Below, one piece after another: positions 3,693-57,018 of a DNA stretch of 64,000 nt. The translations under genes and the position numbers were made by a program. Positions within the stretch are counted from its first letter, which is position 1. Each line of letters starts with the position of its first letter. The stretch lies in the NCBI GenBank assembly GCA_013298775.1, contig JAAFIV010000005.1, positions 1 to 64,000 on the forward strand. Reading direction: 5' to 3'. This stretch comes from Ignavibacteria bacterium (lineage in GTDB: Bacteria > Bacteroidota > Ignavibacteria > Kapaibacteriales > UBA4661). The notes under the pieces were generated by a model. That model saw nothing but the letters and a program-made list of their open reading frames with translations. It did not search any database and was not told where the DNA came from.

Positions 3693-3770
3693 AGTGGCAC
3701 AGACATTCTTGTCTGTGAGTGTTAGTGAGGGTTTCAGGCGACAAACACAGACAAGAATGTCTGTGCCACT
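3693..3770. repeat. Family B palindromic element, copy 1
   Basis: A 78-bp element with arms TGGCACAGACATTCTTGTCT and its complement around a short centre. It lies between the 166-aa protein gene and the first histidine kinase gene. A 30-bp left flank resembling TTGGAAAGANTCCTTGACCC is also shared with other copies. Confidence 0.9.
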
Positions 3771-14599: not shown

Positions 14600-14677
14600 A
14601 GTGGCACAGACATTCTTATCTGTGAGTATTGGTGCAGAGTTCAGGCGACAAACACAGACAAGAATGTCTGTCCCACT
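14600..14677. repeat. Family B palindromic element, copy 2
   Basis: A 78-bp copy with arms AGTGGCACAGACATTCTTAT and ACAAGAATGTCTGTCCCACT. It lies between the convergent TonB-family and adenine deaminase genes, just before the terminator hairpin. Confidence 0.9.
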
Positions 14678-14711
14678 GAAGCCAGACTTTTCTGATTTTT
14701 TTCTTGCTTTG

Positions 14712-31776: not shown

Positions 31777-32322
31777 TTAGAGTTTGAAATCTACGCCGAG
31801 ACGCAAATAACCCAATGCCCAATAGCCAAGTTCTAATTTTGCTGCGAGTTTGTCGGAGAAATAGTACCGTGCGCCAAGACGACCGTCCCATGTGAAATAG
31901 CTACCAGTTGAAAAACCCGTGTAAGCTGGGTCTGATGATGTCCATGAAGATACGACATATCCAGCCCCGACACCTACCCATGTATCCAATTTGTTTACTT
32001 TGAGAAGGTCGAAGTGGTAGTTTGCACCAATAATAATTGGAATTTGTGTGTATGTCCAAGTAACATTGGTCAAATAGTTGTAGCTATATCCAAAGAAGCC
32101 AACGCTACCTGTAAGACCAAGGTTGGAAAGTATGCCGTACTCAACATTCACAACTGGACCTAAGCCACCATAGACACCACCACCCAAACCAAAGTGTGCG
32201 CCAACATAGAAATCTCTACCGTTAAAATTGGAATTGCCTCCCGGAAGGAATGATTTTTGAGCAAAAGCTGCGGCACTACTCAAGACAAACCCCAACACAA
32301 CAACTGCGAAAAATTTACGCAT
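31777..32322 (-). CDS. Outer-membrane beta-barrel protein
   Basis: 181 residues. A clear Sec signal peptide (MRKFFAVVVLGFVLSSAAAFA, cut before QKSF) is followed by alternating aromatic/glycine strands typical of small porin-like barrels: YVGAHFGLGGGVYGG, GFFGYSYNYL, TWVGVGAGYVV and ARYYFSDKLAAKLELGYW. Function is unknown; such proteins are often structural or adhesive. It is divergent from the large pseudokinase fusion gene and has its own terminator hairpin. GAGG lies before the ATG. Confidence 0.85.
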   Translation of the reverse strand: MRKFFAVVVLGFVLSSAAAFAQKSFLPGGNSNFNGRDFYVGAHFGLGGGVYGGLGPVVNVEYGILSNLGLTGSVGFFGYSYNYLTNVTWTYTQIPIIIGANYHFDLLKVNKLDTWVGVGAGYVVSSWTSSDPAYTGFSTGSYFTWDGRLGARYYFSDKLAAKLELGYWALGYLRLGVDFKL

Positions 32323-32692: not shown

Positions 32693-35600
32693 ATGAACAT
32701 TTTTGCGCATTCTCGCTATTCTGATATTCAGGTACTTTCTACAACAGAACACGCTCATTTGCTCCGCGTATTCGACAATGAACGCACGGAGCAAGTAATG
32801 GTGCGGGTTTTCCGTACCTCGCGTGAGGCAGAGCAGTCGTATATTCTTACTGAAATTGCGTCGCTGGCAAAACTCGCCGCACCGCAAGTAGCTTCCGTGC
32901 TAGATATGGGACTGACCGTGCAAAACGAACCATTTATGGTTTTCGAGCAGATTCCCCACATCCCGCTTGAAAACGTCCCTTCCGAGCAGTTTCATTCGCC
33001 AGAGTTTTTTACTGCTGTTGCGGTGTCTGCCTTGCAAGCACTCGCTCCATTGCACAAGCAATACCGCGCCTTGACCTGCTGTACGCCTCAGTCCTTGCGT
33101 TTGGAAGATATTACCTTGCCAAATGTGCGCATGAGCTTGGAAACATGGGAACCGCCCTACAATGCAGAAGTGATGCGGGTTTTCTACGGTTCGCATAATA
33201 GCTATGCCGCACCAGAACTCACCTCCGGCGTGGTGCTAGATGCCCGTGCAGACTTGTACTCGCTTGGTGTGGTGCTGTACGAAGCTCTCACGGGACAATC
33301 CTTCGCCGACCTCTCTATGGTGGACGCGCCCGGAATGGTGGCGCATTTGGTCGTCAAAAATATTCGCGCTCATGCACCAAATTTGCCCGATGTCCTTGCG
33401 CAATGGCTCTACGGCTTGCTAGAACGCGAGCGGTCTATGCGCTTTTTCTCGGTCAAGGAGGCGTTGGAATATCTTATCACGCATGGACAAGTACGCAACG
33501 ACGCGCTTCAGATGAACAATGAAGCTCTCGAAGAAACACCCATTCACCTTGCCCCAGCTACTGCAATTGGCTTAGAATCTGCGTTTGCGGCGGTTGTGAA
33601 TGTGCAATCGCCGTATTCAGAATCGGCGGTATTAGAAATTTCTGGCGAGCCGGGTGTGGGCAAAACCTTTCTTCTCTCAACGCTCTTGCAATCACGCTTG
33701 CACTCCACCGCACTCTTGCGTCAGCGCATTGAGTACATTCGCCCACGCGATGCCGCAAACCTTGCAGACCGCATCTGCACTGCCCTAGAGCATCAAGAGC
33801 CAACGCTCTTTTTAGTGGACGATGCCGAGCAGATTCCAGAGCGCGTCCGAAAAGCTGCAAAGGAAGCATTGGCGCGGGAAGGCACGTTGCTGATTGGCGT
33901 GCGCGTCGTTGCAACGCACCGTTCACAATTGCCACTCTTAGCAACCAAGCCAACGACTATTACACTCTCACATCTCGCGCCGTCGCATTTGCCATTGTTC
34001 TGCTCAGAAATACTGGGGCGGTGTGCCTTTACGCCAGATTTTACCAAGTATTTGTACACCATCAGCAAAGGGCATCCGCTTTTGCTGGAAACTGTGCTTA
34101 GGCGTTTGGTGAAAAGCGGTACGATTATTCGGCACAATCGCATTTGGACAGAAAATACCTCCGACCTCAATAAACCGAAAAACGATACTCCCCAAACGCT
34201 TCTGCAAATTGTGATTGAAGCCCTGCGTACCTTGCCAGAAGAGCTTTCTACCACACTTGCTGCGCTCGTTGCTCTGAGTAAAGCGGGCGTGCAGAGCGTC
34301 TCGCTGCATACACTGGCAGAGTTGTTGGACTCCTCTACACAAGCAACCATGCGCCTTGTATTGCCATTGTCCTTTGAAGGATTTGTCAAACTGCGTGCGT
34401 CGTATTTGGAATTTGCACACGATATTGTGCTAGAAGCTGCCATGACCGCCTGTTCTGAAGCCAGTATTCAAGCCTTGTTGCTCAAATGGCGCATTGCAAA
34501 AAATAACGAAGAACCCGCGCCCCAGGCGCAAAGTATTCCCGCAGAAAGGGCTGTGCAAAACCCGCCAAAACAGACTTTAGAGCTTGTTCCGCAGGAAACG
34601 CACGCCGTGAGTCCGGTGCAAATATCTCCGCAAATCCCTTCAGAAGCACCTTTACAAGCATCTTCACAAGTACCTTTACAAGCACCTTCAGAAGTACCTT
34701 CGACGCAGACACGAGTGCAGGACAGTACGCCACATCCGCAAACCATAAATTCCGAGCCTCGCTCCACAATGACAATCACGGCTGCCGAGGCATATAGTAC
34801 GGAAACTCGTGATGCGATATTTCCAGAAGAGACCACCATTGATGCGCCTTCTGCGGTAATTTTGCATGGTTCATCCAAGCCCGCGCAGCTTCTTCGCCGC
34901 ACGGTGGAGATTGCCGCTTCGCACCAGCATTTATCCTGTTTGATAGAAGGGACGTTTGGGGCGCAAAAAGAGGAGCTGGCATTTCTCATTCACAGTGCGA
35001 GTGAGCGGCGCAACGCACCATTTCATGCGGTTTCTTGCGCGGATTTTAGTGATGAGGAATTGGAAATCTATCTTTTTGGGAACAACGGAACTCCAACTGG
35101 TCAGGCGGGGTCTGGTCAAGCGGGATTACTGCAAGAATCGCAGGGTGGAACGGTTTTTCTGGATGAGATTGCTGCCGCGCCAAAACAACTCCAAACTCGC
35201 TTGGGACGACTTCTCCAGACGCTTCAGAAACAGCGCACGAGGAATTATGCGGGATATGTGGCAAAATCGCTTCAAGGACAAGAAGTATTGCCCGATGTAC
35301 GGGTAATTGTCGGCTTTACGATTCAAGACGGGCAACGAGCGGAAATCGCCCTTAGGCAAAACCTTTTACAACCAGAATTATTTTTTGCCGTAAGCAGCGT
35401 GCGTGTAACGGTGCCGCTTCTGACCGAGCGCACGGAAGATATTCCTCTTCTGGCACAAGAATACACCAAAGCGATTGCCCGTGAATACGGCATCAGTCCT
35501 GAGCTTCAGCATATTGCCCCCGAACTGTGGCACAGCCTCAGCAGCAAAGAATGGTTTGGCGATATGAGCGAATTGGAAGCAATGATGCGCCGCCTCGCGC

Positions 35601-36013
35601 TTATGCTCGACGCGGGCACAGAAAGTATTTACGATGTGTTTATGGAATTTATCGCGCCACCCGCACCAACGAATGTGTACGCGCTGCCGCTCCAATCCGC
35701 GCCACAGCAAACCATTTCACAGCAAACCATTTCACAGCAAACAATTTCACAGCAAACCATTTCACAACAAACTATTTCACAGCAATCATTGCGGCAGAGT
35801 TCCCCTCTCAGAGCGAGCAATTATGCGGATTTTCAGGAAGATTTCCCGCAAACAACTTCGGATGGATTGCTTTCGATTGATGATGCCCAGAAAGAGCATA
35901 TTCTCCGCGCCCTTGAGCGTACTGGCGGCAATAAAACCAAAGCTGCCGAGATGCTCCGCATCAAGCGTACAACCTTGCTTGCGCGGATGAAAAAGTTTGG
36001 TTTGATGCCGTAA
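32693..36013 (+). CDS. Pseudokinase-AAA-degenerate sigma54-activator-Fis fusion regulator
   Basis: 1106 residues. Residues 1-260 resemble a Ser/Thr kinase fold (YAAPELTSGVVLDARADLYS, LGVVLYEALTGQSF), but the HRD catalytic loop reads YRALTCCTPQSLRLEDI and no DFG is seen, so it is probably a pseudokinase. Residues about 300-520 form an AAA/ORC-like ATPase with Walker A GEPGVGKT and Walker B LFLVDDAE. A low-complexity linker follows. From about 719 a sigma-54-activator-like core begins (LLQESQGGTVFLDEI, SSKEWFGDMSELEAMMRRLA); its Walker A is degraded (EGTFGAQKEEL) and the GAFTGA loop is replaced by GTPTGQ. After a QQTIS repeat, a Fis-type helix-turn-helix ends the protein (TGGNKTKAAEMLRIKRTTLL). 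It is probably a DNA-binding signalling scaffold. Confidence 0.85.
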   Translation: MNIFAHSRYSDIQVLSTTEHAHLLRVFDNERTEQVMVRVFRTSREAEQSYILTEIASLAKLAAPQVASVLDMGLTVQNEPFMVFEQIPHIPLENVPSEQFHSPEFFTAVAVSALQALAPLHKQYRALTCCTPQSLRLEDITLPNVRMSLETWEPPYNAEVMRVFYGSHNSYAAPELTSGVVLDARADLYSLGVVLYEALTGQSFADLSMVDAPGMVAHLVVKNIRAHAPNLPDVLAQWLYGLLERERSMRFFSVKEALEYLITHGQVRNDALQMNNEALEETPIHLAPATAIGLESAFAAVVNVQSPYSESAVLEISGEPGVGKTFLLSTLLQSRLHSTALLRQRIEYIRPRDAANLADRICTALEHQEPTLFLVDDAEQIPERVRKAAKEALAREGTLLIGVRVVATHRSQLPLLATKPTTITLSHLAPSHLPLFCSEILGRCAFTPDFTKYLYTISKGHPLLLETVLRRLVKSGTIIRHNRIWTENTSDLNKPKNDTPQTLLQIVIEALRTLPEELSTTLAALVALSKAGVQSVSLHTLAELLDSSTQATMRLVLPLSFEGFVKLRASYLEFAHDIVLEAAMTACSEASIQALLLKWRIAKNNEEPAPQAQSIPAERAVQNPPKQTLELVPQETHAVSPVQISPQIPSEAPLQASSQVPLQAPSEVPSTQTRVQDSTPHPQTINSEPRSTMTITAAEAYSTETRDAIFPEETTIDAPSAVILHGSSKPAQLLRRTVEIAASHQHLSCLIEGTFGAQKEELAFLIHSASERRNAPFHAVSCADFSDEELEIYLFGNNGTPTGQAGSGQAGLLQESQGGTVFLDEIAAAPKQLQTRLGRLLQTLQKQRTRNYAGYVAKSLQGQEVLPDVRVIVGFTIQDGQRAEIALRQNLLQPELFFAVSSVRVTVPLLTERTEDIPLLAQEYTKAIAREYGISPELQHIAPELWHSLSSKEWFGDMSELEAMMRRLALMLDAGTESIYDVFMEFIAPPAPTNVYALPLQSAPQQTISQQTISQQTISQQTISQQTISQQSLRQSSPLRASNYADFQEDFPQTTSDGLLSIDDAQKEHILRALERTGGNKTKAAEMLRIKRTTLLARMKKFGLMP
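34619..34708 (+). repeat. Degenerate coding repeat (QAPSEVP-type)
   Basis: Imperfect repeats of about 24 bp encode the linker PSEAPLQASSQVPLQAPSEV in the fusion regulator. They lie between its AAA domain and activator-like core. Confidence 0.7.
35705..35793 (+). repeat. 15-bp coding tandem repeat, six units (QQTIS)
   Basis: CAGCAAACCATTTCA occurs about six times in frame and encodes QQTIS repeats between the activator-like core and the Fis helix-turn-helix of the fusion regulator. The units are nearly identical, a sign of recent slippage. Confidence 0.92.
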
Positions 36014-36340
36014 ATGTGATTCTGTGAATTTGATGCTATAAGTGGTTCTAAGTAATTTTAATTGGAAAGAAGCCTTACTCAATTAGTGGCTTGAGACTTC
36101 TTGTCTGTGAGTATTAGTGCGGGGTGCAGGTAGGCAACGCAGACAAGAAGTCTCAAGCCACTATTGATTTTGAACACTTATTTTTTACCGTTTCCTGTGG
36201 CTGATAAAATCTATGTTTTCAAAAGTGCGTTAGAGACAAAAGCTGTGAATGTGCAATGTGTCAGGTCTTCCCATCTTTGCCAGTTATGCACGGACTATTT
36301 TTTCCTTCCACACGATTCATGCTTTCCGTAAATTCCGCGC
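36014..36340. other. Intergenic region (327 bp) holding a family B copy
   Basis: The space between the fusion regulator and the next barrel gene. It contains the family B element at 36085 with its left flank (36058 on). The remainder shows no coding signal. Confidence 0.6.
36085..36162. repeat. Family B palindromic element, copy 4, arm-swapped variant
   Basis: Same layout as the other copies, but an 8-bp block in the arm reads TTGAGACT instead of ACAGACAT. The opposite arm has the matching AGTCTCAA, so pairing is kept. The 27-bp left flank TTAATTGGAAAGAAGCCTTA is shared with the copy at 56941. Confidence 0.9.
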
Positions 36341-51017: not shown

Positions 51018-51095
51018 AGTGGCACAGACATTCTTGTCTGTGAGTGTTGATACGGGATTCAAGCGTAGAACACAGACAGGAATGTCTGTGCCACT
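51018..51095. repeat. Family B palindromic element, copy 5
   Basis: 78 bp, arms AGTGGCACAGACATTCTTGT and its complement with one or two mismatches. It lies between holB and polA. Confidence 0.9.
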
Positions 51096-56940: not shown

Positions 56941-57018
56941 AGTGGCACAGACATTCTTGTCTGTGAGTGTTGGTGCGGGGTTCAGGCGAACAACACAGAC
57001 AAGAATGTCTGTGCCACT
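56941..57018. repeat. Family B palindromic element, copy 6
   Basis: Near-consensus 78-bp copy, preceded by the flank TTAGTTGGAAAGATTCCTTG (56914 on) that is also found at 36058 and, without the palindrome, at 59666. Confidence 0.92.

Follow-up and report, generated by a model that had tools for sequence, protein, structure and literature searches.

What does a protein do that joins a kinase fold, an ATPase, a sigma-54 activator core and a DNA-binding domain in one chain, when the kinase and the activator core lack most of their catalytic residues? The window analysed here, a 64,000-nucleotide stretch of contig JAAFIV010000005.1 from an Ignavibacteria bacterium whose near relatives are named Candidatus Kapaibacterium, holds such a gene at 32693..36013 (+). 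It encodes 1106 residues arranged as a pseudokinase, a STAND-like ATPase, a dead bEBP core and a Fis-type HTH. An earlier note made from the sequence alone had given this reading frame correctly, and the ATG at 32693 agrees with the start of the closest orthologue. Pfam searches of the 1106-residue protein found Pkinase (2.8e-9), AAA_22 (6e-6, at its cut-off), Sigma54_activat (4e-23) with AAA_lid_14 (7e-10), and HTH_8 (7e-13) in that order, which confirmed the four-part polypeptide (kinase-like, AAA ATPase, bEBP-like core, Fis-type HTH) that the note had proposed, including three of the HMM matches that it had suggested looking for (Pkinase, Sigma54_activat and HTH_8). AlphaFold models, built from the window protein and related loci, were good for both halves, with a pLDDT of 87 for the kinase and ATPase half and 78 for the bEBP half, the latter depressed by one disordered linker, and motifs were called by comparison with intact WOR-3 relatives.

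The first 264 residues (32693..33484, +) form a protein-kinase fold, which in the AlphaFold model is matched best by PknA and PknB (Z of about 24-25, rmsd of about 3, about 250 residues aligned), such that Pfam and structure agree on a kinase-like domain, the point on which the earlier note had staked its reading. The absence of HRD and DFG that it had described was borne out, and the Gly-loop and the VAIK Lys are missing as well, while APE and a DARADLYSLG segment are kept. Compared with an active Hanks-type Ser/Thr kinase, the fold is present and the VAIK Lys, HRD Asp and DFG Asp are missing. Across the family, a motif alignment revealed that Gly-loop, HRD Asp and DFG are absent from the kinase of every member, with G018 the sole member to have a Lys at the VAIK place.

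Behind the kinase lies a P-loop NTPase with a winged-helix-like region (residues 285-600; 33545..34492, +). This part is colinear with the corresponding module of bacterial STPK-AAA_16 kinases: hhalign aligned it over its whole length with the NTPase and winged-helix part of such proteins in other phyla (probability 99.5, 313 columns). The region after the ATPase is helical and wing-like in the AlphaFold model. The Walker A GEPGVGKT (residues 318-325; 33644..33667, +) and Walker B LFLVDDAE (residues 372-379; 33806..33829, +), from which an apparently intact ATPase had first been called, are indeed intact and are followed by a GHP motif of the GxP type, and the P-loop is intact in every relative, reading GE.G.GK[TS] with G, G and K invariant in all those aligned. 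AAA_16 and nSTAND fell below cut-off in the window protein, although AAA_16 is above cut-off in relative L048, and the matches listed for the joint kinase-ATPase model in structure comparison are kinases only. Judged from sequence profiles, the first ATPase is probably of the STAND kind linked to STPK; PknK, with its STPK-STAND architecture, and MalT are classed among STAND proteins (PMC4381067).

The bEBP core (Sigma54_activat and lid, residues 722-985; 34856..35647, +) has likewise kept its fold, as its AlphaFold model matches FleQ, NtrC1 and NtrX (Z of about 23, rmsd of about 3, about 240 residues aligned) and also VpsR (Z of about 22-23 across the four). Its Walker A is broken (GTFGAQKE, residues 753-760; 34949..34972, +), the Lys being kept and the second Gly gone, and the place of the GAFTGA loop (residues 797-806; 35081..35110, +) reads NNGTPTGQAG, which is unconserved even in comparison with the nearest species. 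Both arginine fingers are lost at residues 891-901 (LLQPELFFAVS; 35363..35395, +), where FREDLFYR has become LQPELFFAV, and so are the sensor-I Asn (ATN to VGFT) and the sensor-II Arg (GNVREL to GDMSEL), with Walker B intact (FLDEI). The losses thus go beyond the broken Walker A and missing GAFTGA noticed at first, and the missing GAFTGA and ATPase motifs support the earlier expectation that the usual route of sigma-54 activation should be closed to this core. Of the features of a sigma-54-dependent bEBP, the core fold, lid and Fis-type HTH are present, whereas GAFTGA, Walker A, arginine fingers and sensors I and II are not; as a bEBP core with HTH and without GAFTGA, the protein belongs with the GAFTGA-less bEBPs.

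These losses extend to the family. GAFTGA is absent in all members with the region covered, and the second Walker A is broken in all except G018. G024 is the only member with an arginine finger, the second one; the rest have lost both. Relatives with both GAFTGA and Walker A intact would have spoken against the earlier reading: GAFTGA occurs in none, and a normal second Walker A (GTGKE) does occur in G018, which suggests that motif loss in the family was probably stepwise. Most members have retained the acidic residues of Walker B, and some (G000, G005, G008 and G009) the second-core P-loop Lys, so that this core might still be able to bind nucleotide. The same residues, together with the GTGKE and VAIK-type Lys of G018, would suit a broader proposal in which the kinase or second core has an unconventional activity, or in which the pseudo-active sites bind nucleotide and signal thereby, but we consider this improbable given that no member has HRD Asp or DFG and that only G024 retains even one arginine finger.

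Conservation is highest at the C-terminus, where the Fis-type HTH (residues 1057-1106; 35861..36010, +) is nearly invariant in the family and, at 82-100% identity within the genus, the most conserved part of the protein. The Pro/Gln/Ser-rich linker at residues 601-720 (34493..34852, +) evolves fast, and its place is taken by TPR repeats in relatives L047 and L048. The linker before the HTH carries tandem QQTIS repeats (about 35705-35788) that are largely missing from the orthologue of the nearest species. So conserved an HTH could also belong to a constitutive DNA-binding repressor or scaffold that has no nucleotide switch and whose first ATPase is structural only; we regard this as unlikely, since the first ATPase retains its Walker A and B across the family whereas motifs in the second core drift, a pattern that a merely structural part would not be expected to show.

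To place the gene among relatives, an alignment search of 123 genomes of the order was evaluated, in which carriers scored E < 1e-199 and everything else E > 1e-28. The survey of relatives that had been suggested thereby yielded a family with shared catalytic losses that is present in 13 genomes, one copy each, including 10/10 of its own family; the three relatives outside it come from two other families of the order and are longer, with TPR repeats in two. Among 395 sampled genomes of the phylum, a sparse sample, matches at E <= 1e-40 were members of the own genus only, and an initial scan of genome contigs with the single protein gave no matches. A bEBP-core tree (100/99) and a quick kinase tree (99) each recover the family as a single clade, with long branches in both that leave finer placement unsure. 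Values of dN/dS (Nei-Gojobori), read from close pairs only because silent sites are saturated in the more distant ones, were <=0.14 in each folded domain versus 0.16-0.63 in linkers, and for G000 versus G005 they were 0.10 for the kinase, 0.08 for the ATPase, 0.14 for the bEBP core and 0 for the HTH, with 0.16-0.38 for the linkers. Every folded domain is under purifying selection. That the gene is a pseudogene or a recently decayed form of an intact regulator, as the loss of several catalytic motifs and the long branches might suggest, is highly improbable: the frame is open in all 13 genomes, the losses are shared, and the nearly invariant HTH and low dN/dS in folded domains speak against recent decay.

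We also evaluated whether the losses reflect the lineage at large. All seven further bEBPs matched in this genome have retained GTGK and a GAFTGA-type loop, and 60/61 genomes sampled, among them the source genome, encode sigma-54, which rules out a lineage-wide loss of GAFTGA or an absent sigma-54 and makes the motif loss special to this protein. The same seven bEBPs and sigma-54, with the retained bEBP fold and lid, would be compatible with a negative sigma-54 partner that occupies enhancer sites or mixes into active bEBP rings and so blocks them. This alternative is nevertheless unlikely, as the HTH has a sequence different from the HTHs of those seven bEBPs, such that shared enhancer sites would be unexpected, and the arginine fingers of the ring interface are lost.

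The surroundings of the gene vary, with no conserved operon partner and neighbours that differ even within the genus. No shared operator or inverted repeat was seen upstream of the orthologues; a GCACCA-N7-TGGTGC repeat upstream of the gene in the window is not retained in the nearest species. No sigma-54-type site stands out near the gene, and a raised count of weak sigma-54-type matches in the window arises from a dispersed repeat. An outer-membrane beta-barrel-like gene lies divergently at 31777-32322 (-); G005 has a weak homologue (33%) at the corresponding divergent position, where other congeners have none. A role in anti-phage defence was rejected, as the PADLOC matches were confined to the kinase or bEBP domains and the family carries the gene as a fixed single copy.

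The dispersed repeat is an inverted-repeat element of about 76 nt, running from TAGTGGCACAGACATTCTTGTCTGTG to its reverse complement, with copies in the window at 3693-3770, 14600-14678, 51018-51095 and 56941-57018 and a variant-arm copy just 3' of the regulator gene (36084-36163; RNA fold z -9.5). Its 16-base core has 339 exact matches in the genome versus 0 for a reversed control, and the variant-arm form has 82 matches at <=2 mismatches. Among congeners, G005 has the element in abundance (296), while it is less frequent in three and absent from three. The genome has two Y1_Tnp matches, one of which contains a stop.

The domain order itself is shared, contrary to the earlier statement that no named system is known to have it. 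Two WOR-3 proteins, L054 (DSBX01000071.1) and L059 (CP070680.1), read kinase-AAA_16-TPR-GAF-bEBP-HTH (HTH_8) and so have kinase, ATPase, bEBP core and HTH in the same order, which rules out a unique arrangement. Unlike the Kapabacteria protein, they possess TPR and GAF, and their kinases (HCDLKP or HCDVKP, DFG) and bEBP cores (GETGTGKG, GSFTGA, FREDLYYR or FREDLFYR) are intact. A common origin with these fusions was supported by neither the bEBP-core nor the kinase tree; as the WOR-3 proteins are not placed as sisters, the two fusions may be independent. Unfused counterparts, in which a bEBP gene is directly followed by a same-strand STPK-AAA_16 gene, occur in Kapabacteria (G016, L150:2197-7572) and Schekmanbacteria (L108:7685-13111), and this adjacency suggests that kinase-STAND and bEBP modules work together. 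With the WOR-3 fusions, it makes a kinase-STAND module feeding a bEBP appear to be a recurring design, of which the Kapabacteria family is the version with both enzymes dead. The own genome also encodes, on contig C12 (L050:5409-10811), an 1801-residue kinase-AAA_16-GAF-histidine kinase hybrid that matches Pkinase and HATPase strongly.

Anatomy, motif loss, conservation, selection and distribution are established, and the reading that we consider probable is a vertically inherited DNA-binding regulator that no longer uses sigma-54, with the STAND ATPase as its switch and the bEBP core as scaffold. In this regulator the dead kinase fold would serve as a sensor or docking domain, and the STAND-type ATPase would be the only complete nucleotide engine left; by analogy with PknK- and MalT-type STAND proteins, ATP binding or exchange may bring it into an open state that allows assembly of the protein. 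The bEBP core, its fold kept, would form no hydrolysing ring and make no sigma-54 contact, acting instead as an assembly surface and carrier of the Fis-type HTH, whose invariance points to binding of a conserved operator. The outcome would be repression or activation at primary-sigma promoters, as for TyrR, VpsR and Rhodobacter capsulatus NtrC. Of the earlier proposal of a sigma-54-independent regulator driven by the first ATPase, the independence is supported by motif losses, conservation and selection, and the drive is consistent with the invariant P-loop.

Known systems share parts of this arrangement. Several bEBPs without GAFTGA work with sigma-70, namely TyrR, DhaR, HupR, VpsR and the NtrC of R. 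capsulatus and Caulobacter (PMC3162934, PMC10274813), and they likewise combine a bEBP core whose sigma-54-contact loop is altered or deleted with a C-terminal Fis-type HTH. The Kapabacteria protein differs from them in also lacking arginine fingers, sensor I and sensor II and in having a pseudokinase and a separate STAND-like ATPase ahead of the core. Mycobacterium PknK shares the kinase fold followed by a P-loop NTPase and winged-helix-like region, and MalT a STAND ATPase that drives a DNA-binding domain (PMC4381067), whereas here the kinase is dead and a bEBP core with a Fis-type HTH provides the output. No published description of the pseudokinase-STAND-dead bEBP-HTH architecture was found in a search largely outside subscription journals. 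Since GAFTGA-less sigma-70 bEBPs are already known, the family is a conserved new variation on them; more tentatively, it could represent a lineage-specific class of sigma-54-independent transcription factors that have handed ATP control over from the bEBP ring to a preceding STAND switch, with two enzyme domains turned into non-catalytic signalling parts and a DNA target conserved genus-wide.

Automatic domain annotation would name this protein a sigma-54-dependent regulator or a Ser/Thr kinase, both probably wrong. The family offers a natural series of steps by which a sigma-54 activator can be turned into something else, from the intact WOR-3 proteins through Kapabacteria of other families, with TPR and, in a single instance, a normal second Walker A, to the own family, where most catalytic residues are lost although its DNA-binding end stays almost unaltered, and with it the role of a bEBP core that has no ATPase cycle becomes directly testable.
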